Positions 3,094 through 15,981 of a stretch of DNA of 40,506 nt are shown one piece after another (position 1 is the stretch's first letter; each line of letters starts with the position of its first letter). Made by a program: the position numbers and the translations under genes. The notes beneath the pieces were generated by a model. The model ran no database searches, was not told the origin of the DNA, and saw only the letters and a list, made by a program, of their open reading frames with translations. The stretch comes from Chloroflexota bacterium (GTDB lineage: Bacteria > Chloroflexota > Dehalococcoidia > SM23-28-2 > RBG-16-64-32): NCBI GenBank assembly GCA_005882715.1, contig VBEI01000005.1:1-40506 (forward strand). Direction: 5' to 3'.

Positions 3094-4143
3094 ATGGTCA
3101 GGCTATTCAGGCGAAAGAAGGACGAAGAACCGATCGGCGCAGAGGAAGACGCCGCTGGGGTTACGGCCGTAACCGAGGGGCCAGTACCGCCGCCCGAGGC
3201 GACGGCGCCGGAAGACGAAGCCGCGCCCGTCGATCAGGCAGTCGAGCGTACGCGGCGAACGTGGTTCAGCCGCATAGGAGGGATGTTCCGTCGCGGCTTG
3301 AACGAGGAGTTATGGGAAGAGCTGGAAGAGACCCTTGTCGCAGCGGATACCGGGGTGACGACTACGATTAAGGTCATCGATGATCTGCGGGAGCGTGTCA
3401 AGCAAGAGTCGATTCGGGATCCGGAGCAGGCCCTTGGCGTTCTGAAGGAAGACCTAATCGCGACGCTGGAAGTGGACACCGGCCGGGGTCAGATATGGCA
3501 CTCAAATGGGCATCGGCAGACGTTGCCCAGGCCGGCGATTATCCTGGTGGTGGGAGTGAACGGGACGGGGAAGACGACGAGCATCGGCAAGCTGGCGCAC
3601 GCTTACAGATCCCAGGGGAAGAAGTTGGTATTAGCCGCGGCGGATACCTTCAGGGCGGCGGCGATCGAGCAGCTGAAGGAGTGGGGACAGCGGACGGGCG
3701 TCGACGTGGTGGCACATAAGCAGGGCGCGGACCCGGGCGCGGTCGTCTTCGACGCGCTGTCTGCGGCGGAAAGCCGGGGCGCGGACGTGTTAATCATCGA
3801 CACCGCGGGAAGGCTGCACACAAAGGCGCACCTGATGGAAGAGCTGATGAAGGTGAACCGCGTTATCCAGCGCAAGTACCCGGAGGCGCCCCACGAGGTA
3901 TTGCTAGTCCTTGACGCGACGACAGGCCAGAACGCGATGCACCAGGCGAAGTACTTCACCGAAGCGGTCGGCGTAACCGGCGTCGTACTGGCAAAGCTCG
4001 ACGGGACGGCGAAAGGCGGCGTCATCTTCTCGATATGCGACCAACTCAGGGTGCCGGTGCGCTTCGTGGGTACGGGCGAGCGGCCACAGGACCTGGCGCC
4101 GTTCGAGCCGCGCGAGTTCGTCGAGGCGTTGTTCGCCTCGTAA
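3094..4143 (+). CDS. ftsY: Signal recognition particle receptor FtsY
   Basis: 349 residues with an acidic N-terminal A-region (about 1-60) followed by the NG domain of SRP GTPases. Motifs in order: GVNGTGKTTSIGKLA (P-loop), DTFRAAAIEQL, DTAGRLHTKAHLMEEL (G3) and LAKLDGTAKGG (G4), ending in a conserved GERPQDLAPFEPREFVEALF tail. FtsY docks ribosome-SRP complexes at the membrane by GTP-dependent pairing with Ffh. Length and ending are complete. It closes the smc-ftsY block; the next gene is 228 nt away. Confidence 0.97.
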   Translation: MVRLFRRKKDEEPIGAEEDAAGVTAVTEGPVPPPEATAPEDEAAPVDQAVERTRRTWFSRIGGMFRRGLNEELWEELEETLVAADTGVTTTIKVIDDLRERVKQESIRDPEQALGVLKEDLIATLEVDTGRGQIWHSNGHRQTLPRPAIILVVGVNGTGKTTSIGKLAHAYRSQGKKLVLAAADTFRAAAIEQLKEWGQRTGVDVVAHKQGADPGAVVFDALSAAESRGADVLIIDTAGRLHTKAHLMEELMKVNRVIQRKYPEAPHEVLLVLDATTGQNAMHQAKYFTEAVGVTGVVLAKLDGTAKGGVIFSICDQLRVPVRFVGTGERPQDLAPFEPREFVEALFAS

Positions 4144-4371
4144 GCGGACATCCCGTCGTTTTTGTCCTCAAGGGCGCCCCCATCCAATGGCCTCGCCCGC
4201 GCTCGCCCGAAGTGGGGAGCTGGGGGCCATCCCCAGACCCCGGTCTGACAGCCATCGAATTGTTATTGGGAAGCACGCCTTTTAGGGCGCCTGGGTGTAC
4301 CCCCGCTCGTGAAGAACGCCTGGCCGGCCCACGTCCAAGCCCGATAGTCGAGCTTCCGCTAGACTGACAGA

Positions 4372-6123
4372 GTGCAAGACGCGCCTGAGCGTGACATAAC
4401 GACTACACCCGCGGCGCCGGCCGTACACGCGGAAGGGCCCAACGCTCAGGTCAGAGCAGGGATTACCCTCAGCGTGGAAACGTTCATCTGGACAGGTCTT
4501 GTGCTGGCAGCGGGCGCGCTCCGGCTCCCACACCTGGGTAGGCCTCCGCTCACCGTGGACGAAGGGCTGCGTGCCTTCGATGCGACGCGGGTGGCCGGTG
4601 GGGATGTGCCCCAAACGTGGCGAGGCGATCTCTCGGAAGCGGCGACCTCGTACCTGTTCCGTATCTTTGGTGAGACGGACCTGCTTGTGCGGCTCCTACC
4701 GGCGCTTGCGGGTGTGGCGATGATCGGGCTCCTTTGGTTGGCAAGGCCGTATGCGGGGCGAGTTGGAACACTCCTAGCGGCGGGGCTACTAGCATTCTCG
4801 CCGATGTTGGTCATCTATTCGCGGTCAGGAACGGAGTTTAGCCTCGGGACATTGGTGGCCGGTCTGATCATGATTTCGCTGTTCGCCTACCTCCAGAACC
4901 CGAGGTCCGGGCTCGCCTTTCCGCTCATCTTTGGGCTGGCGCTGGCGCCGCTTACCGATGCGGTAGCGATGCTCGCCGCGCTGGCCGCACTCGTCTTCCT
5001 GGCGGTGGAGGCAGTGTTCTCCTCAAACAGCGACGTCAGGCACGCCTGGCAGACGTTCAGGCGGAGTCCGCTGCAGTGGGTGACGGCGCTTCTGATCGTC
5101 GCGGCGGCCCTTCAGTTCGGGATTACGCGTTTTGGTACTTCGCTGGAGGGGCTGGACTTGCCCGGGCTGAGGCTTTTCTGGGAGATGTTCGACATGCCGC
5201 GGGACTCGCGGCCGCCGGAGTACCATTTCGCGCTGTTGTTAGCCTACGATTGGCCGCTTCTGCTCGGGGGAACGGCCGGGTTTGTGTTCGTTGCGGTAAA
5301 GTTCTTGCGACAACCGAGGAAAACCACGGCGTTCGAGCGATTTCTGCTGCTCTGGACACTGGCGGCGGCATTCGCGCTGGCGCTTACGACGAGGCGAGAG
5401 GCTGGGCAGCTGCTGATGCTGCTGCTGCCGCTAGGGCTGCTGGCCGGGAGGCTAGCGGAGGAAATCGCGGCGCGGGCCGATTGGGCGGCCACATGCCGCT
5501 GGTGGCCGGCGGGCGCGGCGGTCGCCGCGGCTGCGGCCGCTGCTGCTGTACTCATGACGAAGTGGTCGTCCGGTAACGCGGATACAACAGAGCGGCTGAC
5601 CTTCCTTGCAGCCGTGGTCATCGGCGTGGCGCTAGTCGCTCTCGTCGCTATGAGGGCGCGGGCTGGGGCGATGCCGGCCGTGGCCGTGGTGGTTGCGCTC
5701 GCGGCGACCGTATTTGTCGCCCACTCGTCTCTCGCGGTCGCGTTCTCGGGTGGGACGGAGTTCGCGGTGGACCTTCGGCTCGCGCCTCGCGCAGATCAGC
5801 TGCGTGAGACGGTCGACAAGCTGGCGCGCGAACGGGGCGGAACGATTGTTGTCGACTCAGATCTGAGCGACGAACTCGGGTGGACGTTACGGGACTCGCC
5901 GGTGGTCTTCGGCGGACCGACCAATCGCGCTTCGGCGGTGGTCTCGAGGCCCAATGCAAACCCGGCGGGGTTCGTTGCGAGGGAGGAGGTCTGGCGAGTA
6001 GCCGAGGGTTGGTACCCGGACGAGGTGCTGGCGCCGCGCCGAATGTGGCGCTGGGTGTTGTACCGGGAGCCGTACTCGGACGTGAACGCCTTGGACGTGC
6101 GTATATTCGTCAGGACGATCTAG
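4372..6123 (+). CDS. GT-C family membrane glycosyltransferase (ArnT/PMT-like)
   Basis: 583 residues, mostly hydrophobic with roughly 11-13 predicted membrane segments. The first extracytoplasmic loop carries an acidic pair in PPLTVDEGLRAFD, matching the catalytic or metal-binding loop of dolichyl/undecaprenyl-phosphate-sugar dependent GT-C enzymes. An Ala-rich membrane stretch lies near residues 375-395, and a soluble C-terminal domain (about 465-583) follows. It probably transfers a lipid-linked sugar outside the membrane; donor and acceptor are unknown. The start is GTG at 4372. It is followed 68 nt later by the related Agl23-type gene, suggesting joint function in surface glycosylation. 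Confidence 0.82.
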   Translation: MQDAPERDITTTPAAPAVHAEGPNAQVRAGITLSVETFIWTGLVLAAGALRLPHLGRPPLTVDEGLRAFDATRVAGGDVPQTWRGDLSEAATSYLFRIFGETDLLVRLLPALAGVAMIGLLWLARPYAGRVGTLLAAGLLAFSPMLVIYSRSGTEFSLGTLVAGLIMISLFAYLQNPRSGLAFPLIFGLALAPLTDAVAMLAALAALVFLAVEAVFSSNSDVRHAWQTFRRSPLQWVTALLIVAAALQFGITRFGTSLEGLDLPGLRLFWEMFDMPRDSRPPEYHFALLLAYDWPLLLGGTAGFVFVAVKFLRQPRKTTAFERFLLLWTLAAAFALALTTRREAGQLLMLLLPLGLLAGRLAEEIAARADWAATCRWWPAGAAVAAAAAAAAVLMTKWSSGNADTTERLTFLAAVVIGVALVALVAMRARAGAMPAVAVVVALAATVFVAHSSLAVAFSGGTEFAVDLRLAPRADQLRETVDKLARERGGTIVVDSDLSDELGWTLRDSPVVFGGPTNRASAVVSRPNANPAGFVAREEVWRVAEGWYPDEVLAPRRMWRWVLYREPYSDVNALDVRIFVRTI

Positions 6124-6191
6124 AGGCAAACGCGCCGAGCGGACAAGCCAAGGGCAAGAGGTAATGAACTTTGGAGCGACGGGGCTGAAGA

Positions 6192-9100
6192 ATGAGTGAA
6201 CTCGTGCGACCGCTGCCGTTAGGAACGACCGCCGCAAGAACGCGCGACACATTCAGCACGCTAACCTTGCGACTCCCGTTGACCTGGGAGGCGGCGGCTT
6301 ACGGCGTGCTGATCGCGTGCGCTTTCGGGTTCCGGTTGTGGGACCTTGGGTCAAGGGCGATGCACCATGACGAGAGCCTTCACTCGTACTACGCCTACCA
6401 GATTCTTCAGGGGCACGGCTACGAGCACAGCCCCGTGCTGCACGGGCCGTTCCAGTTTTTCGGGACGGCATTGACGTTCTTCTTGACCGGCGGCGCGTCG
6501 GATACCTCGGCACGCATCCTGCCGGCGCTATTCGGCGGCGTCCTCGTGCTGCTGCCTCTGCTGTTCCGAAGCCGGCTCGGCCGACTAGGAGCGCTAGTGA
6601 CGGCTACGTTGATCGCCTTCTCGCCGACACTGATGTATTACAGCCGCTTCGCACGCGAGGACATCTACGCGGCCGTCTTCACGCTGGGGATCGTCATCTG
6701 CGTCTGGCGCTACATCGATGAGGAGAAGCCGCATTACCTCTACATCTCGGCCGCGCTGCTGGCGCTGAGCTTTGCCACCAAGGAGACGACGTTCGTCTTC
6801 ACGGCCATAATGCTGATTTTCCTCGACCTGTGGGCGGCATTGGAATTCGCCGGTCAGGCACGCGGGAGAGGATCGAGGATGGCGCGCGGGTCAGCCTTCC
6901 TGGGATACGCGCCGTTCGCTTGGGCGATCGCGGCGCTGTGGCCGTTCATCGGAGGAATCCGCAAACGGCTGGGGCTCCAGGAGCGGCATCCAGCCGTGGA
7001 TGTCCTGGTGATCATGGGCACGCTGGCGGGGCCGCAGTTCGCGGCCGCTGTGAAGGTCCCGCTGGAAGGTGCCGGAATGGAGATTAGTCCGGGGGCCGAC
7101 GAGCGTGCGCTGGCGATCCCGGTCGTGCTCGCGCTTGTAGCCGCGAGCGTGCTCGTGGGGCTGGCTTGGGACCGGCGAGTGTGGTTGACGGCGGCCCTCT
7201 GTTTTTGGGCGCCGTATGCCCTGCTCTTCACGGCGTTTCTTACCGACATCGACGGATTCGGCGGCGGCATCTGGCAATCTCTCGACTACTGGATCGGCCA
7301 GCACGGGGCGCAGCGCGGCGACCAGCCGGAGTTTTATTACTTGATGTTCTGGCCGGCGTATGAGTACCTGGCGCTTGCGCTCGCGGGACCGGCTCTCCTG
7401 TATTACTCGCTGCGCGGCGGGCCAGGCTCCTGGCTTCTGACGGTAATCACGGTGGTTGCTTTATTGTCTGCGTTCGGAGCGGACAGCTTCGCCGACGACA
7501 CGGCGGTTGAGGTCGCCCAATGCCTTGCGCTGGCTCTGGCGGCGGTGACGCTGTTTCTCGCGGTGAAAGGCGACATTTTCGAGCGCTTTCTAGTGTTCTG
7601 GACCGTAACGAGTCTCGTCGCCTACTCGCTCGTGGGAGAGAAGATGCCCTGGCTGACGGTCCACACGACTCTTCCGCTCGTAATCCTGGCGGGCTATAGC
7701 GCCGGGCGCTTCTTCTCGTGGCTGGTGGCGAGACGGAAAGCAGACGGAGGCGCGCAACGAAGCCGCTTCAGGCCCGGGCGGGCAGTGGCGATCGCGGTGG
7801 CAGCGCCAATCGCCGTCCTCGGGGTACTAAGCATGCGCACCGCCATCCTGGCGACCTACGACCACGGGGACGTGCCGCGCGAGTTCTTGTTCTATACGCA
7901 GACATCGCCTGACGTGCCAGACGTTGTGGAGCGCGTCGACCGCATCGCCGAATCCTCGGGAAGAGGGAAGGGCCTGCGCATTCAGGTCGATCGGACGGAC
8001 CCTTGGCCGTGGGCCTGGTACTTCCGTGACTACGACGTGAGTTTCGATGAGATGGGGGCGGAGTTCCGGCCGGAAGCGGATTCAGTACTGCTTCTTTCAG
8101 CTCCGAACGAGACGTACTCCAGCGCATACATCGACAGCTATCAGCCGTCGCAGCCGTACACACTACGCTGGTGGTTCCCGGAGGACTACCGAGGCATCGG
8201 CGAGAAGAAAGACCTGGCGGAAGGCATCGCTGATTTCGCGTCGAGCCTCAAGGCCGGCCATACTTGGGAGCGCTGGTGGGGCTTCTGGTTTCACCGCGAT
8301 ATCTTGCCGCAAGGTGGAGTGGAGGGCCGGCTGTTTGTGCCGTTGGAGTTCGAGGCGGTCGATCCCGGACCGTCATCATCCACGCCTGTGGGCCGAGGCG
8401 AAACCGCGACACGGCCGGCGGCGGACCTGGAGGGACGCTACATCATCGGGCGGCTCGGTGCGGAGCCGGGGCAGATGGACCTGCCGCTGGGGGTGGCGCT
8501 CGACGCTGGCGGCAATATCTACGTCGTCGATAGCGGCAACTCTCGGATCCAGAAATTCGATCCCCGCGGGAGGCCTTTAGCGGCAGTGGGCTCGGCGGGC
8601 TCGGCGCCCGGCCAGTTCAACCAGCCTTCCGATATCGCGGTCGACGCCGCCGGGAACGTTTATGTAGCCGACACATGGAACCACCGGATCCAAAAATTCG
8701 GCGCGGACCTGACACCTATCTTGGTTTGGGGGCAGGCGACAGGCGATCTAATCAACCCCGCGCCGGACAAGTTCTGGGGCCCGCGGGGGATCGCGATTGA
8801 CCACCAGGGCGACATCCTAGTAGCCGATACGGGCACCAACCGCATCCGCAGGTACACTCCAGACGGGACGCACCTTGGCGACTTCGGGCGGCGCGGCAAG
8901 GAGGCGGGGGAGTTCGATGAGCCGACGGGAATCGCGGTTGGCCCGGACGGGTCGATCTACGTGGCGGAAGGAGGCAACGCGCGCATTCAGAAGTTCGACG
9001 CCTCGGGGAAGTTCATTGCAGCGTGGCCGATCGAGGACTGGGGCGAGCGGAGCCTGCGCAACAAGCCGCGCATCGAGGCCCTGCCTGACGGCCGCCTGAT

Positions 9101-9302
9101 CGCGACCGACGCGCCGCATGCGCGGCTACTGTTGATCGGCAAAGACGGGCATGTGACGGCGCGGTTGGGCACGGTGGTGGAGGTGCCGCTGTTCTCGCCG
9201 GAGGGGGTGGCCTTCGACCCGGAGCATGGGTTTGTCTACGTGACGGACGGGCTGGCGGGGCACATACGGCGCTTCCCGTTCACTGACTTTGCGCTGCGTT
9301 AG
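6192..9302 (+). CDS. Agl23/TIGR03663-type GT-C glycosyltransferase fused to an NHL-repeat propeller
   Basis: 1036 residues. The N-terminal part (about 1-560) is a polytopic GT-C domain with the acidic loop MHHDESLHSYYAYQ, then HGPFQFF, YYSRFAREDIY and FATKETTF, motifs recognisable from the TIGR03663 'flippase activity-associated Agl23' family of archaea and Chloroflexota. A soluble domain follows (about 560-740). Residues about 745-1036 are roughly six NHL blades, each with the pattern GVALDAGGNIYVVDSGNSRI/IQKF, predicting a closed beta-propeller outside the cell. The protein may bind and modify a glycan or protein at the surface. No frameshift across 3.1 kb. The exact substrate is unknown. 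Confidence 0.87.
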   Translation: MSELVRPLPLGTTAARTRDTFSTLTLRLPLTWEAAAYGVLIACAFGFRLWDLGSRAMHHDESLHSYYAYQILQGHGYEHSPVLHGPFQFFGTALTFFLTGGASDTSARILPALFGGVLVLLPLLFRSRLGRLGALVTATLIAFSPTLMYYSRFAREDIYAAVFTLGIVICVWRYIDEEKPHYLYISAALLALSFATKETTFVFTAIMLIFLDLWAALEFAGQARGRGSRMARGSAFLGYAPFAWAIAALWPFIGGIRKRLGLQERHPAVDVLVIMGTLAGPQFAAAVKVPLEGAGMEISPGADERALAIPVVLALVAASVLVGLAWDRRVWLTAALCFWAPYALLFTAFLTDIDGFGGGIWQSLDYWIGQHGAQRGDQPEFYYLMFWPAYEYLALALAGPALLYYSLRGGPGSWLLTVITVVALLSAFGADSFADDTAVEVAQCLALALAAVTLFLAVKGDIFERFLVFWTVTSLVAYSLVGEKMPWLTVHTTLPLVILAGYSAGRFFSWLVARRKADGGAQRSRFRPGRAVAIAVAAPIAVLGVLSMRTAILATYDHGDVPREFLFYTQTSPDVPDVVERVDRIAESSGRGKGLRIQVDRTDPWPWAWYFRDYDVSFDEMGAEFRPEADSVLLLSAPNETYSSAYIDSYQPSQPYTLRWWFPEDYRGIGEKKDLAEGIADFASSLKAGHTWERWWGFWFHRDILPQGGVEGRLFVPLEFEAVDPGPSSSTPVGRGETATRPAADLEGRYIIGRLGAEPGQMDLPLGVALDAGGNIYVVDSGNSRIQKFDPRGRPLAAVGSAGSAPGQFNQPSDIAVDAAGNVYVADTWNHRIQKFGADLTPILVWGQATGDLINPAPDKFWGPRGIAIDHQGDILVADTGTNRIRRYTPDGTHLGDFGRRGKEAGEFDEPTGIAVGPDGSIYVAEGGNARIQKFDASGKFIAAWPIEDWGERSLRNKPRIEALPDGRLIATDAPHARLLLIGKDGHVTARLGTVVEVPLFSPEGVAFDPEHGFVYVTDGLAGHIRRFPFTDFALR

Positions 9303-10000: not shown

Positions 10001-11862
10001 CGCTGCCGACATACAAGGAGATGTGGCAGCAGGCCGACGAGGTCTGGACACGGACGGCAAGGCCGGCGCGTACGCTGATAAAGGTTGGCGTGGCCACCTG
10101 CTCGCGAGTCGTGGGGGCGGAGGAGACGCTCGAGACGCTCAGGAGGGAGGTCCAGGCGCGCAGGCTCGACGCCGACGTCATGCTGACCGGTTGTCTGGGG
10201 CTCTGCTACGCGGAACCACTCGTCGAAGTGATCCGGCCGAACGTCCCAGGTATCCTCTACCAGCTCATGACGGCAGACAAGGTGGCGTCGCTCCTGGAGA
10301 CGGCGGTGGCGGCGGACGGGAACGCGCGCGAGCATGCGCTGGCTGTAATGGGGGACAAAGAATTCGGCGGTCTGCCGGCCCTCGGTTCGCTCGAATTCAT
10401 GCGCGGGCAGGTACGCCGATTGATGGCGAATTGCGGCGTGACGGATCCCGAAAGCATCGACCACTATCTTGCGCGCGGAGGCTACGAAGGGCTAGTTGGT
10501 GCGCTGCGGCTGAAGCCCGTGGAAGTGATCGACGAAGTAAAGAAATCCGGGCTCTGGGGCCGCGGCGGCGCGGCGTTCTCGACGGGTCTGAAGTGGGAAT
10601 TTCTGTATAACGCCAAGCGTAAGCCGAAATACCTGATCTGCAATGCAGATGAGGGCGACCCGGGTTCGTTCGTCAACCGCAACCTGATGGAAAGCGATCC
10701 GCAGCTCCTGGTGGAAGGGATGATCATCGGCGGCTACGCCACAGAGGCGGACAAAGGATGCATCTACATCAGGGACGAGTACCCGTTACCGGTCGAAAGA
10801 ATGGAGCTGGCAGTCGCCCAGGCACGCGAGCGGGGCCTGGTGGGCGAAGGGATCCTGGGAAGCGACTTCTCTTTCGAGCTGGAGGTCGTGCGCGGCGCGG
10901 GGAGCTACGTCTGCGGCGACGAGACGGGGCTGCTGTCATCGCTCGAGGACAGGCGGGGGATGCCGAAGATCAAGCCGCCCTTTCCGGCTCAGGCCGGCGT
11001 CTTCGCGATGCCATCGAACATCAACAACGTCGAGTCTTACACCAACGTGCCCCTAATCATGCGCCACGGGGCTGATTGGTGGGCGGAGATGGGGTCCGAG
11101 AAGCACAAGGGCACGAAGATGTTTTCGCTCTCGGGCCAGATCCAGCGGGTGGGAATTCTGGAGGTGCCGCTCGGAACGCCGACCAGCGACGTCGTGATGC
11201 GTATGGGCGGGGGCCCGCCCAAAGGGCGCAAGTTGAAAGCCGTCCAGCCCGGCGGCCCGCTCTCCGGAGTCATACCGGCAAGCGACGTGGACATCCCACT
11301 GGAACCGGACCCCTATCGCGAGCGCGGGGTACTGATGGGATCGGGCGGGCTCGTGATACTGGACGACACGAACTGCATCGTCGACCTCTGCGTCTACTTC
11401 GAGTGGTTCGCGGAGGACGAATCGTGCGGTCGGTGCACGACCTGCTTCGCGGGGACGCGGCGGATGCTGGAGATCCTGCGCCGGATTAGCAGCGGGCGCG
11501 GGCGGCTGGCCGATCTGGAACTGATCAAACTTTTGGGGAGCATCGCGCAGAACGCGAACTGTTTTCACGGGCAGGGAGCGCCGACAGCCGTCATGTCTAT
11601 GTTCCGCTTCTTCGAGGGCGAGCTTTTGGAACATGTGGAGCGAAAGCGCTGCCCGGCGAAAGTATGTCGCGGTCTGGTGCGCTACGAGGTGCTTCACCAC
11701 TCGGACCGCCTGCCAGCGGCGGAGGCCATCTGTCCCACGAATGCGGTGGTGCGCGACAACGGGACATACAGGATCGACCAGCTGAAATGCATCAAGTGCG
11801 ACGCCTGCCGTGAACAGGCGCCTTATGCTATCGCGGTTGTAGACGAGTTCGCGCCCGCCTGA
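9997..11862 (+). CDS. NuoF/HydB-type NAD(P)H-binding flavoprotein with Trx-like N-domain and remodelled ferredoxin tail
   Basis: 621 residues. Residues about 25-110 form a thioredoxin-like domain with CLGLC, as in HydB/HoxF-type subunits. The NuoF core follows: FMN/NADH motifs GRGGAAFSTGLKW and NADEGDPGSF, then GAGSYVCGDETGLLSSLE, then the [4Fe-4S] ligands CGRCTTC and the distal Cys in NANCFHGQG. The C-terminal ferredoxin-like domain (about 560-615) retains C579 (AICP) and C598/C601/C604 (CIKCDAC), but the other four cysteines of a two-cluster ferredoxin are absent, so one cluster remains. Probable role: NAD(P)H-linked electron bifurcation or diaphorase module. The terminal oxidoreductase partner is not in the window. 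Confidence 0.9.
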   Translation: MTLPTYKEMWQQADEVWTRTARPARTLIKVGVATCSRVVGAEETLETLRREVQARRLDADVMLTGCLGLCYAEPLVEVIRPNVPGILYQLMTADKVASLLETAVAADGNAREHALAVMGDKEFGGLPALGSLEFMRGQVRRLMANCGVTDPESIDHYLARGGYEGLVGALRLKPVEVIDEVKKSGLWGRGGAAFSTGLKWEFLYNAKRKPKYLICNADEGDPGSFVNRNLMESDPQLLVEGMIIGGYATEADKGCIYIRDEYPLPVERMELAVAQARERGLVGEGILGSDFSFELEVVRGAGSYVCGDETGLLSSLEDRRGMPKIKPPFPAQAGVFAMPSNINNVESYTNVPLIMRHGADWWAEMGSEKHKGTKMFSLSGQIQRVGILEVPLGTPTSDVVMRMGGGPPKGRKLKAVQPGGPLSGVIPASDVDIPLEPDPYRERGVLMGSGGLVILDDTNCIVDLCVYFEWFAEDESCGRCTTCFAGTRRMLEILRRISSGRGRLADLELIKLLGSIAQNANCFHGQGAPTAVMSMFRFFEGELLEHVERKRCPAKVCRGLVRYEVLHHSDRLPAAEAICPTNAVVRDNGTYRIDQLKCIKCDACREQAPYAIAVVDEFAPA

Positions 11863-11925
11863 ACGCCGCTCGCTCGTCGCGCGTCTGGCGCTTTTGAGCA
11901 TCTCTGCTCAATTGACGGTAAGGCG

Positions 11926-11934
11926 TGCTATAAT
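11926..11934 (+). promoter_or_regulatory. Extended -10 promoter element of the first PAS-LuxR gene
   Basis: TGC followed by a perfect TATAAT (11929-11934) gives an extended -10. No good -35 lies at 16-18 nt. The predicted start of transcription near 11941 leaves a leader of about 109 nt before the ATG at 12050 and rules out upstream in-frame start codons. Confidence 0.5.
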
Positions 11935-11951
11935 CCGCGTGCAAAGAACGA

Positions 11952-12018
11952 GGGTGCGCCTTCCCGACCCGGGGCGGTCCCGAAGGCCTGCGGAGCTGCT
12001 TCGTGGCTCCGCTCACCC
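11952..12018 (+). promoter_or_regulatory. Potential three-way-junction leader structure
   Basis: In the leader of the PAS-LuxR gene, three nested pairings fit together. P1 is GGGTG 11952-11956 with CACCC 12014-12018. P2 is GCCTTC 11958-11963 with GAAGGC 11982-11987, plus inner GACC/GGTC. P3 is GCGGAGC 11990-11996 with GCTCCGC 12006-12012. It matches no riboswitch class I recognise, and high GC content makes chance hairpins common. Confidence 0.3.
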
Positions 12019-12049
12019 AGTGCGCCTCTGCCTTTACCGGGGCTGTCCA

Positions 12050-13615
12050 ATGAGTGTAGTTGAAGGCGCCGGGCGCCGGCCCGGCGTGCGGACGACGAAA
12101 GCGGGCCTGCAGAGCGGCGTACCGAGCAGAGCTGGGCCGGTGCAACCGGACGCCAGCGGACAGCCGGCACCCTCAACGCTGGCCGTCGACTCTCCGTTCG
12201 GTTGGGCGGCGGCGCTCTACCGAAGCATCGTTGACACTTCCCCCGACGCGATCACGGTAACGACGATCGAGGGCAAGATAATTCTTTGCAACCAGCAAGC
12301 GGCGACGCTGCACGGCTTGCAACGAGTCGACGAGATGATCGCCCGTTCGGCCTGGGAGTTCGTGGCGGGAGAAGACATCGAGCGCGCCTCGCGGGATTTC
12401 CTGCGTATTTTGACGGAAGGTAGCATTCGGGACGTCGAGTATTCGCTGTTGCGTGCCGACGGCAGGCGGGTGCCCGTGGAACTTAGCGCATCGGCGATTA
12501 TTGATAAGGAGGGTAAACCGCGAGCGCTAATCAGCGTCGTTCGAGACGTTACGGAGCGGCGGACGGCCCAGGAGGCGCTGCGCCGGAGCGAGGAGCACTT
12601 CCGCCATCTAATCGAGAACGCGCCGGACTTGATCACGGTCATCGAGCCAAGCGGTGAGATTCGCTACCAGAGCCCGTCGGTACGACGGACGCTGGGGTAT
12701 ATGCCAGACGAGCTGGTAGGCACAAGCATCTGGCAAATTATTCATCCGGACGACCTGCGAGAGGTCGGGGATGCAATAGCACGAGGGCTCCTCGAGGTAC
12801 AGTCATCGGAATCGGGGCTGCCACACAAACTGCTTGTCTTCCGGGCGAGGCACAGAGATGGGCGCTGGCGCTACATGGAGGGGTCCGGCAAGGTGCTGAT
12901 GGAGGACGGCCGCGCATATGGGTTGATCAACTCGCGCGACATCACCGACCGGATCGAGGCGGAACGGGCGCTGGAAGCGAGCGAGCGGCGCAAGGCGGCT
13001 ATCTTAAAGACAGCTCTGGACGCAATTATCACCATCGATTACGAGAGCAAGATCCTCGAGTTCAATCCGGCGGCCGAGGCGATGTTCGGTCACGCTGCCG
13101 CCGAGGCGATAGGGAAATCGCTCGACGACCTGATCGTGCCACCTTCGCTGCAAGCCAAGCATCGGCCCGGGATGGAGCGCTACATGACAACCAGTGAGGG
13201 CCCGGTGCTGCGGAAGCGGATCGAGCTGACCGGGATGCGGGCGGATGGAAGTGAGTTTCCGGTGGAAATCGCCATCGTACCCATCGAGATGGCCGGGGCA
13301 ACGATTTTTACCGGCCACGTACGCGATTTGACCGAGCGCAAGCGAGCGGAAGAGGAGCTTCAGCGGGCCAGGGAGGAGCTGGAGAGTAGAGTCGAGCAGC
13401 GGTGGGGCGTGGAAGGTGCGTACGGACTGACTTTTCGCGAGCTGACCGTGTTGCACCTGGCGTCAAGCGGAAGGGCTGACAAGGAGATTGCGGCTACGCT
13501 AGGGATCAGCCCGCAGACCGTAAACAAACACGTGCAGCGGATACTGCACAAGATGGGCGCATCATCCCGCACAGAGGCGGTGGTGCGGGCGATCAAAGAG
13601 GGGGTCGTAGGGTAG
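12050..13615 (+). CDS. PAS-PAS-PAS-LuxR one-component transcriptional regulator
   Basis: 521 residues from the ATG at 12050. Three PAS/PAC units lie at about 54-170, 178-300 and 305-425, each ending in a PAC-like segment such as VVRDVTERR, NSRDITDRI and HVRDLTERK. A short coiled coil (EEELQRAREELESRVEQ) leads to a LuxR/GerE-type helix-turn-helix at about 455-518 (LTFRELTVLHLASSG, then TLGISPQTVNKHVQRILHKMG). There is no kinase domain, so signal sensing and DNA binding are in one chain. An open frame extends upstream to TTG at 11894, but the TATAAT at 11929 falls inside that extension. It is paralogous to the regulator at 14005. Confidence 0.88.
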   Translation: MSVVEGAGRRPGVRTTKAGLQSGVPSRAGPVQPDASGQPAPSTLAVDSPFGWAAALYRSIVDTSPDAITVTTIEGKIILCNQQAATLHGLQRVDEMIARSAWEFVAGEDIERASRDFLRILTEGSIRDVEYSLLRADGRRVPVELSASAIIDKEGKPRALISVVRDVTERRTAQEALRRSEEHFRHLIENAPDLITVIEPSGEIRYQSPSVRRTLGYMPDELVGTSIWQIIHPDDLREVGDAIARGLLEVQSSESGLPHKLLVFRARHRDGRWRYMEGSGKVLMEDGRAYGLINSRDITDRIEAERALEASERRKAAILKTALDAIITIDYESKILEFNPAAEAMFGHAAAEAIGKSLDDLIVPPSLQAKHRPGMERYMTTSEGPVLRKRIELTGMRADGSEFPVEIAIVPIEMAGATIFTGHVRDLTERKRAEEELQRAREELESRVEQRWGVEGAYGLTFRELTVLHLASSGRADKEIAATLGISPQTVNKHVQRILHKMGASSRTEAVVRAIKEGVVG

Positions 13616-13901: not shown

Positions 13902-14004
13902 AAAGACCCTGTGCGCGCAAGCCGCAAGGAGCGGCGCGGGGCGGTAATAGGTGCGACCTTCCAGCGCTGCTGGTATTTGTACCGTCGCAGACCGGAGCGA
14001 CGAA

Positions 14005-15981
14005 ATGAAAGAGCCAGAGCAGTCGCGCTCGCATAAGACAAAGGGAGCGAAGGGTCAGCTCCAGGAGCTGATCGATGTAATCGCGCTACGCGCGTCAACT
14101 GCCGGTGTGGCTGAAGTTCAGGGCATTGAAGATGCCCTGCGATTCGTAGTCGACCGCATATGCCGCCACACCGGCTGGCCGGTGGGGCACGTCTACATGC
14201 CGGCGCCCGATTCTGAGGATGAGTACGTGAGCGCAGGCATCTGGCACCTCGATGACGCCGCGGCGCTCGAACGATTCCGCAAGGCCACGGAGCAGACGCG
14301 GCTCAATGGAGACGTGGGATTACCCGGCCGGGTCCTGTCGTCGGGCAGACCTGCCTGGGTGGTTGACGTAGGGCAGGAGCCGGGCTTCCCCAGAGCCGCA
14401 GCGGCCAGGAGAGCGGGCCTTAAGTCGGCGGTCGCGTTCCCAATTCAGGCCGGCGAACGGACCGGGGCAGTGGTGGAGTTCTTCTCGCGGGAGGTGATGG
14501 AGGCTAACGAGCATCTGCTCGAGGCGATGGTGAGCATCGGCACGGAGCTGGGAAGGGCTTTCGAACGCAGCCGTGAGTTGTCGATGGCGCAGCAGGCGGC
14601 GGAGCTATATCGGAGCGTTGTAGAAACTTCGCCGGACGCCATTATGGTCACGGACCTGAATGGCAGGGTGCTGATGTGCAACCAGCAGGCGGCGGCCCAC
14701 CACGGCGCGGAGGGGCCGGAGGCGATGCTGGGTCTCAGCGGCTTCGATTTCGTGGCACCGGAAGACCGGGAGCGCGCCGTTGAGAATGCGCGGCGCACGC
14801 TAGAGACGGGCGGAGTTCGCAACGTGGAATATACATTGGTCCGGCGGGACGGCTCGCGCATCCCTGCTGAATTGAGCGCGTCGCTGATCCGGGACCCGCA
14901 GGGACAGCCGCGCGCCTTCATCGCTGTTGTGCGCAACGTTGCTGAGCGAAAGAAGTCCGAGGACGCGCTGCGCCAGTCGGAGGAGAAGTTCCGCACGCTG
15001 ACGGAGATGAATGCGGCGGCAACGTTCGTCTTCAAGAAGGGCCGCCTCGTGTACGCGAATTCGGCGGCGGCGGAAATGACTGGATACAGCGTCGACGAGC
15101 TTCTGACCATCGACCCATGGAAGACCGTACACCCCGACTTCCGGGAGAGCCTGGAAGAGGCCTGGCGCGCAACCTTTGAGCGACCCGACCAACCGCCGCC
15201 GAGTGGGTTCGAGGTGAAGATCGTAACGAAGGACGGTGACGAGCGCTGGGTCGAGTACAGCGCCGACCTCGTGGATTGGGAAGGCGGCAGGGGAGTCCTC
15301 GGGACTGCTTACGACGTGACGGAGCGCAAGCAGGCGGAGCAGGCGCTGCGCGACAGCGAGGAACGCTACCGGGTGATGTACCAGGACAACCCCTCGATGT
15401 ACTTTACCGTGGACGCGGCGGGCAGGGTGCTTTCCGTGAACCAGTTCGGCGCGGAGCAGCTGGGCTATGCGCCGGAAGAGCTGGCCGGCACGCCCGTGCT
15501 AGAGGTCTTCTACGATGAGGACAAGGAGGATATCGCCCGCCAACTCCAGCTGTGCATGGACACGCCGGGGAAGATGTCGCACTGGGAATGCCGCAAGGTG
15601 AGGAAGGATGGGGAAGTGGTCTGGGTCAAGGAGGCGGCGCGCGCGACTTTAGACGTCAACGGCGAACTAATCGTGCTCATTGTGTGTGAGGACATCACAG
15701 AGCGCCGGCGGATGGAAGAAGAGCTGCGGAAGGCGAGGGAGGAGCTGGAAGGCAAGGTCGAGCGGCAGATGCAGCAGGGACGGGCCTATGGCCTTACCTT
15801 CCGCGAGCTAACTGTCCTTCACCTGGTTGCGGCCGGAAACTCCGACAGGGAGATGGCTGATAAGCTCGGCATCAGCCCTTTGACGGTGAGCAAGCACGTC
15901 GCCAACATCCTGTCGAAGATGGGGGCGTCCTCACGCAGCGAGGCGAGTGCGCGCGCGGTGCGGGAAGCGCTTCTCGTGTAG
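14005..15981 (+). CDS. GAF-PAS-PAS-PAS-LuxR one-component transcriptional regulator
   Basis: 658 residues from the ATG at 14005, chosen because GGAG (13994-13997) sits 7 nt upstream; the frame stays open to a GTG at 13951. An N-terminal GAF domain (about 25-180; GRVLSSGRPAWVVDV, SAVAFPIQAGERTGAVVEFFS) is followed by three PAS/PAC units (about 188-310, 315-440, 445-570). A coiled linker and a LuxR helix-turn-helix (LTFRELTVLHLVAAGNSDRE, LGISPLTVSKHVANILSKMG) end the chain. No kinase domain is present. The first PAS and the DNA-binding domain closely resemble those of the gene at 12050, so the pair arose by duplication with gain or loss of GAF. Confidence 0.88.
   Translation: MKEPEQSRSHKTKGAKGQLQELIDVIALRASTAGVAEVQGIEDALRFVVDRICRHTGWPVGHVYMPAPDSEDEYVSAGIWHLDDAAALERFRKATEQTRLNGDVGLPGRVLSSGRPAWVVDVGQEPGFPRAAAARRAGLKSAVAFPIQAGERTGAVVEFFSREVMEANEHLLEAMVSIGTELGRAFERSRELSMAQQAAELYRSVVETSPDAIMVTDLNGRVLMCNQQAAAHHGAEGPEAMLGLSGFDFVAPEDRERAVENARRTLETGGVRNVEYTLVRRDGSRIPAELSASLIRDPQGQPRAFIAVVRNVAERKKSEDALRQSEEKFRTLTEMNAAATFVFKKGRLVYANSAAAEMTGYSVDELLTIDPWKTVHPDFRESLEEAWRATFERPDQPPPSGFEVKIVTKDGDERWVEYSADLVDWEGGRGVLGTAYDVTERKQAEQALRDSEERYRVMYQDNPSMYFTVDAAGRVLSVNQFGAEQLGYAPEELAGTPVLEVFYDEDKEDIARQLQLCMDTPGKMSHWECRKVRKDGEVVWVKEAARATLDVNGELIVLIVCEDITERRRMEEELRKAREELEGKVERQMQQGRAYGLTFRELTVLHLVAAGNSDREMADKLGISPLTVSKHVANILSKMGASSRSEASARAVREALLV

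Follow-up and report, generated by a model that had tools for sequence, protein, structure and literature searches.

Why should a protein whose nearest solved relatives pass electrons to ferredoxin end in a ferredoxin domain with ligands for only one of its two iron-sulfur clusters? The question is raised by a stretch of 40,506 nucleotides (the window), contig VBEI01000005.1 of assembly GCA_005882715.1, from a bacterium of the class Dehalococcoidia (Chloroflexota). It encodes a NuoF/HydB-like NADH:FMN (flavin mononucleotide) subunit of 621 residues, comprising a thioredoxin-like N-domain, an FMN/NADH domain, an SLBB domain, an N3/B1 [4Fe-4S] domain, and a C-terminal ferredoxin-like tail. I propose that this protein is the NADH-input NuoF of a complex I, descended from a bifurcating, ferredoxin-coupled module that has dropped its ferredoxin branch and kept one tail cluster under selection. 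I think this account probable, though some way from secure.

The half-emptied tail itself is not in doubt. A first-pass annotation of the window had S569, L572, A575, and A608 standing in place of the four ligands of cluster I, with the four of cluster II (C579, C598, C601, and C604) retained, and translation, codons, and an alignment with HydB and NfnB proteins of solved structure all agree: S569, L572, and A575 fall on the first three cysteines of motif I and A608 on the fourth of motif II. The B subunits of Bfu enzymes carry two [4Fe-4S] clusters, B3 and B4, in this domain, and here four of the eight ligands are absent. The annotation had the cluster pattern right, but the start of the domain has to be moved to about residue 548 (about position 11638), and it made no mention of a linker metal site, C460, H546, C552, and C557. 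This is the B2/Zn site with its conserved histidine that characterizes Bfu B subunits (PMC9304861), with Ser498 at the variable fifth position; the metal bound there is Zn2+ for T. maritima HydB and for StnB, and A. mobile HydB has been modelled with a [2Fe-2S] cluster, B2, at this site.

In an AlphaFold2 model made from 32 aligned sequences, the tail is confidently predicted to fold as a ferredoxin (strand-helix-strand-strand-helix-strand), with a mean pLDDT (predicted local distance difference test) of 90 overall and 92-96 across most of the tail. The top match of the model in Foldseek is NfnB (9bp5_B), over 593 columns that include the tail (TMq 0.89). Were four of the eight cysteines lost at random, exactly one cluster would be emptied in 2 of 70 sets (0.029), and cluster I in 1 of 70, but the calculation is irrelevant because a single pattern, none of the first four cysteines and all of the second (0+4), is conserved in 78 relatives. 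That conservation rules out chance loss. An error of assembly or reading frame is ruled out because the pattern recurs unchanged in two genomes from the genus, at 91% identity, and across the whole order; a pseudogene is ruled out by the open frame, the conserved catalytic residues, and a low ratio of nonsynonymous to synonymous substitution rates (dN/dS).

The relatives were drawn from 61 close genomes, 80 public contigs, a 393-genome survey of the class, and about 80 further loci, and their tails were classed by the motif patterns of the eight cysteines. Four classes emerged: 78 one-cluster proteins, 82 with two clusters, 8 without a tail, and 2 in which C601 was lost as well. The one-cluster pattern is found in 78 of the 88 members of one clade within the class, spread over 17 families and 45-91% identical, while all eight cysteines are present in 82 of 82 two-cluster homologues, which come from many phyla. 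None of the complete two-motif tails scored has a mixed subset of the eight. Public contigs of other phyla with a complete tail are all of the two-cluster type, and a 400-genome survey of the phylum gave a sole match outside the class at that level, 45% identical, the comparison being one of identity only.

A maximum-likelihood tree of 115 sequences, midpoint-rooted and calculated from core columns that exclude the tail and seven discriminating positions, puts the one-cluster, tail-less, and three-cysteine proteins all on the same side of one branch (Shimodaira-Hasegawa-like approximate likelihood ratio test support 98). Loss of a cluster is the simpler reading of this tree, since the two-cluster form is widespread across phyla. 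The tail-less proteins lie at three positions: genome G042, one genus of family f38, and genome G303, where the assembly is fragmented and the apparent loss may be a frameshift. In two genomes of family f21 (loci L220 and L222, in G231 and G106), C601 of a one-cluster tail has become glycine; the three cysteines left could possibly hold a [3Fe-4S] cluster or frame an empty site.

Such further losses within the same clade, of whole tails and of the extra cysteine in f21, are what one would cite in favor of the view that a useless domain is decaying neutrally and has been caught half way. That view hardly deserves belief. Against it stand the same four cysteines in the 78 members, the fold predicted with high confidence, and the pace of substitution: when the window gene is compared with its two relatives of the same genus, the dN/dS of the tail is 0.01-0.04, which indicates purifying selection, and within the family it is mostly at or below 0.2 (0.01-0.2), with some pairs at 0.3 and the most distant at about 0.5. 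The annotation had called the loss clean, functionally coherent, and unlike random decay, and here it was right: four ligands are jointly absent in a single clade, the other four persist in most of it, and the close relatives do not show the random loss of cysteines on which the claim had been staked.

The tail did not change alone. Comparison of the whole clade (n=88) with the two-cluster proteins (n=82) turns up seven positions that segregate with it: 226 (V in 86/88, M in 81/82), 304 (Y in 88/88, F in 81/82), 311 (G in 88/88, A in 80/82), 422 (L in 88/88, S in 79/82, so that GGPSG becomes GGPLx), 479 (R in 88/88, K in 77/82), 521 (N in 88/88; S, A, or T in the two-cluster proteins), and 524 (H in 88/88, L in 82/82). 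Some of these have a history. Losey et al. took Met, Phe, and GGPSG to mark bifurcating beta subunits, and Tyr with no GGPSG to mark non-bifurcating NADH enzymes (PMC7311640). The window protein has the Tyr (Y304) and GGPLS, the Tyr site having been matched by context, since the number given in that paper, 367, mismatches the spacing. Schut et al. considered Phe182, Ala202, and Met204 (A. mobile numbering) specific to Bfu enzymes (PMC9304861); of these the window protein retains the Phe, as F194, and has S224 and V226 in place of the other two. The marks at 304 and GGPSG switch fully to the non-bifurcating state, while 226 departs from the bifurcating one and does not adopt the known non-bifurcating one.

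Two variants at this site may be mentioned in their own right. In the conserved GEET motif at the NADH site, the window protein and 16 other members of the clade have Asp instead of the first Glu (D308, 10918-10920, in the window protein); all two-cluster proteins have Glu there. A two-cluster NuoF on contig G031:C209 (L242/L258) already has V226, Y304, and R479, yet retains Ser422 (GGPSG-type), A311, and L524; D221 and F194 are gone from it. Its gene adjoins those for NuoE and for a NuoG without a formate site, and it may be an intermediate or a divergent copy (the genome is 9% contaminated).

The annotation had concluded that the electron path at the tail was re-routed. The residues at the NADH/FMN site, following as they do the published non-bifurcating pattern, suggest rather that the ferredoxin branch was cut short, and "truncated" fits better than "re-routed". 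The idea of a new route is weakened also by the later losses of whole tails, by the loss, in 25 of the 78 one-cluster proteins, of the metal-site linker between tail and core, and by the fact that no partner for the remaining cluster came to light.

Might the enzyme nonetheless bifurcate, as a BfuBC-type protein (perhaps a soluble NADH/ferredoxin oxidoreductase whose third partner is unlinked) that manages with one tail cluster? The BfuBC pair has been kept, with the linker site, its His, and F194, and nuoEF stands isolated in the genome, in the manner of the BfuA-less Type 4 of PMC9304861. But the three published markers flip across the whole clade, the six clusters of BfuBC are termed invariant in the same paper, most relatives have the gene content of aerobes, and no FeFe hydrogenase is present. 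I judge continued bifurcation improbable; its absence, like the occupancy of the remaining cluster site, is what the sequences lead me to expect.

What, then, does the protein serve? The genome (2.02 Mb, 74% complete), of which the window is contig 16, has two different membrane-arm clusters of complex I (contigs G000:C72, L156, and G000:C158, L157), both without nuoEFG, a nuoI-nuoG pair on a third contig (G000:C17), and, as far as was found, a single NuoF-like protein, the one in the window, to serve both arms. A BfuC-like gene, nuoE, adjoins it; the BfuA/NuoG-like gene is on the separate contig. At the base of the clade, in genome G047, nuoE, a one-cluster nuoF, and nuoG are adjacent. The NADH module of complex I is the simplest reading, and NuoEF would presumably assemble with NuoG into the complex.

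That NuoG, of 887 residues, is closest among solved proteins to the alpha subunit of formate dehydrogenase, which raises the thought that it is the catalytic subunit of an FdsBG-like enzyme, a soluble formate dehydrogenase that depends on NAD and is served by NuoEF. There is even a precedent of sorts in genome G042, where the tail-less NuoF gene is directly followed by a formate dehydrogenase alpha gene (L259, G042:C50, about 3758-6529, minus strand) whose catalytic position is occupied by an in-frame TGA (HCARL-TGA-HSPS) that is probably read as selenocysteine, and an 11-subunit complex I cluster lies close by. But where formate dehydrogenase has DTCARVCHSP, at the active-site motif HCAR-x-C/U-H, the window organism's NuoG reads DSSAGPVPRA, and the motif is gone in all 8 genomes of the order examined (this one and seven others), which led to the rejection of a formate dehydrogenase partner. 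Moreover, the gene is paired with nuoI, and a NuoB-like gene is close by in G008, G020, and G022. The proposal is very improbable. An FeFe hydrogenase as partner was ruled out by its absence from 26 genomes (0/26), and neither a hydrogenase nor a formate dehydrogenase gene is adjacent to nuoEF at the locus.

The model I favor, of a complex I input that has dropped its ferredoxin branch, runs as follows. The starting point would have been a HydB/BfuB-type subunit coupling NAD(H) to ferredoxin. In the last ancestor shared by the members of this broad clade, the ferredoxin domain would have been stripped of the four ligands that hold one [4Fe-4S] cluster, and the pocket for NADH and FMN would have gained non-bifurcating residues. 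Electrons would now go from NADH to FMN, to N3, to the formate-dehydrogenase-derived NuoG, to NuoI, and on to quinone. The two-cluster relay to soluble ferredoxin would be gone, leaving a tail in which the fold persists and selection maintains a single cluster. For bifurcating relatives it has been proposed that electrons leave for ferredoxin through the proximal cluster B3 and the distal B4, with motion around the linker site as the gate; with one of these clusters gone and the marks at the NADH/FMN site changed, that exit must be at least shortened. The remaining cluster I take, a view weakly held, to be most likely a keeper of the fold for a docking piece or a side store of electrons and not an obligatory relay.

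The main rival makes the one-cluster tail a working port, through which complex I, fed by NADH at the FMN, also accepts ferredoxin reduced by 2-oxoacid:ferredoxin oxidoreductase (OFOR), with no bifurcation. One-cluster ferredoxins are competent electron carriers. The four ligands are retained in 78 of 88 members of the clade, purifying selection acts on the tail in comparisons of close relatives, and OFOR (POR_N) is encoded in 26 of 26 genomes. The last point cuts both ways, for OFOR is also present in seven genomes with a tail-less NuoF plus G042, so the making of ferredoxin does not in every case call for the tail, which weakens the port reading; loss of the tail shows no correlation with loss of ferredoxin enzymes in the 26 genomes tested. 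Nor do the linker losses, all in members that keep the cluster, sit well with a port, and even with two clusters the tail of the T. maritima enzyme, in its bridge-closed state, holds them some 32-35 Å from the nearest others. I regard a port as possible but distinctly unlikely.

Several observations weigh against the dropped-branch account. The N3 ligands are complete in all 78 one-cluster proteins. Of these proteins only 23 have the full set of N-terminal [2Fe-2S] cysteines (35, 66, and 70) and 53 the complete linker site, so that the single tail cluster is the more widely retained, which argues for function and not for a relict. That it is among the best-kept of peripheral features is the strongest hint, at the level of sequence, that it may have some role. 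Among more distant pairs, the rate of evolution of the tail equals or exceeds that of the core, roughly speaking (L009-L010: 0.49 for the tail, 0.21 for the core). V226 matches no known class, since bifurcating enzymes have Met there and non-bifurcating ones Lys, Ser, or Ala, although S224 does fit the non-bifurcating Thr or Ser at 232 (T. maritima numbering); Ala persists at 224 in 70 of the 88 members; and F194 and the His of the linker site, bifurcating-type features both, survive in the window protein. Here nuoEF lies outside any operon with nuoG or a membrane arm, so assembly is argued from inventory; with a genome 74% complete, another partner or a second NuoF may be missing from it. Finally, the root of the tree is a midpoint only.

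How does the protein compare with known systems? Its closest solved structures are all electron-bifurcating enzymes: NfnB (9n5u, 9bov), HydB (7t2r, 7q4v), and StnB. With these (PDB 9bp5/9bov, 9n5u, 8oh5, 7q4v, 7p5h, 7t2r) it shares the N-domain, FMN/NADH domain, N3/B1, linker site, and ferredoxin-fold tail, at 34-49% identity in structure matches, and a NuoE/HydC-type partner. It differs in having at most one cluster in the tail, Val for Met, Tyr for Phe, and GGPLS for GGPSG, in having no ferredoxin-linked genes for a third substrate nearby, and in its probable partner, a NuoG without a formate site. Canonical NuoF (E. coli; Nqo1 of T. thermophilus) has the same FMN/NADH core, N3, Tyr at the NADH site, and lack of GGPSG, but T/K at 224/226 where the window protein has S/V. 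The window protein scores 433.8 bits against NCBIfam nuoF_fam, below the cut-off of 558.65, and has additional domains at both ends. Canonical NuoF of the same class has Y304 and mostly T224/K226 but lacks G311, R479, N521, and H524, so the clade has a signature of its own too.

Two further systems invite comparison. Nuo-Bfu, a complex I of 14 subunits that includes a BfuABC module (Geobacter type, PMC9304861), also has a BfuB-type NuoF as its input, but with a full two-cluster tail and a single operon; the window protein lacks one of those clusters, and its genome has the genes scattered. Judged by sequence markers that are the same in both, the window protein would resemble the HydB of S. 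wolfei and S. aciditrophicus (PMC7311640), NADH-dependent and ferredoxin-independent. The partner in those organisms, however, is an FeFe hydrogenase, and the tail clusters of S. wolfei HydB are reported absent (PMC9304861), not halved. No description of a one-cluster tail turned up in the literature searched, which is no proof that there is none.

Schut and colleagues proposed a Bfu-type complex I as an intermediate in the evolution of complex I. The one-cluster clade resembles the step after it, for a single tree brings together tails that are full, halved, or missing. It may also bear on the open question of bifurcation in HydABC-type enzymes, namely how one FMN achieves it and with the help of which clusters, since nature has run an experiment in which loss of a cluster travels with a small set of fixed residues near the NADH/FMN site and the core cluster (226, 304, 311, 422, 479, 521, and 524), all candidates for mutagenesis. 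More speculative, and on balance doubtful, is the idea of a distinct complex I of aerobic Dehalococcoidia whose one-cluster domain would be a second, non-bifurcating entry beside NADH, taking ferredoxin electrons from 2-oxoacid oxidation to the quinone pool, or else of preserved intermediates between ferredoxin-coupled and NADH-only complex I.

Table 1. Features of the nuoEF locus, in coordinates of the window.
Feature	Position	Strand	Basis or remark
NuoE/HydC(BfuC)-like partner, 200 aa	9398-10000	+	4-base overlap (ATGA) with NuoF start; four [2Fe-2S] Cys retained
NuoF/HydB(BfuB)-like NADH:FMN subunit, 621 aa	9997-11862	+	Pfam PF01512 and PF10589; solved relatives
N-terminal thioredoxin-like [2Fe-2S] region: C35, C66, C70	10084-10206	+	First Cys position is V30, like NfnB-type relatives
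S224 and V226, at Ala/Met bifurcation-marker positions (A202/M204 A. mobile; 232/234 T. maritima numbering)	10666-10674	+	PMC9304861, PMC7311640
Y304, Phe in bifurcating homologues	10906-10908	+	
G419-S423 (GGPLS), replacing bifurcation marker GGPSG	11251-11265	+	
C460, first ligand of linker metal site	11374-11376	+	
C477, C480, C483, C522, core [4Fe-4S] (N3/B1) ligands	11425-11562	+	Retained in every one- and two-cluster homologue scored
H546, C552, C557 (EHVERKRCPAKVC), other linker metal-site ligands	11632-11667	+	Intact in window protein
C-terminal ferredoxin-like domain, residues 548-621, ligands for single [4Fe-4S]	11638-11862	+	Motif scoring, predicted fold, structure match
S569 (TCG), missing ligand 1 of cluster I	11701-11703	+	
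L572 (CTG), missing ligand 2 of cluster I	11710-11712	+	
A575 (GCG), missing ligand 3 of cluster I	11719-11721	+	
C579 (TGT), retained cluster II ligand	11731-11733	+	
C598-x2-C601-x2-C604, retained cluster II ligands	11788-11808	+	TGC 11788-11790, TGC 11797-11799, TGC 11806-11808
A608 (GCG), missing ligand 4 of cluster I	11818-11820	+	

The four cysteines of NuoE are all present in 17 relatives. Upstream of nuoEF lies a GT39/NHL gene, and downstream lie PAS-LuxR genes and mutS, in an order largely kept in relatives. The first (6192-9302) encodes a glycosyltransferase of GT39 type with an NHL beta-propeller fused to its C-terminus, and it precedes nuoE in many of them. Directly 3' of nuoF, the tandem PAS-LuxR proteins (11894-13615 and 13951-15981), conserved in the genus, each have three PAS domains and GerE, the second with GAF as well. 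Haem-copper oxidase was found above the cut-off in 20 of the 26 genomes and was not found in the window's incomplete one. On contig G000:C17, a gene for nickel superoxide dismutase (L155, 8442-8948, minus strand) adjoins nuoI-nuoG, and a related gene is likewise placed in at least three relatives.
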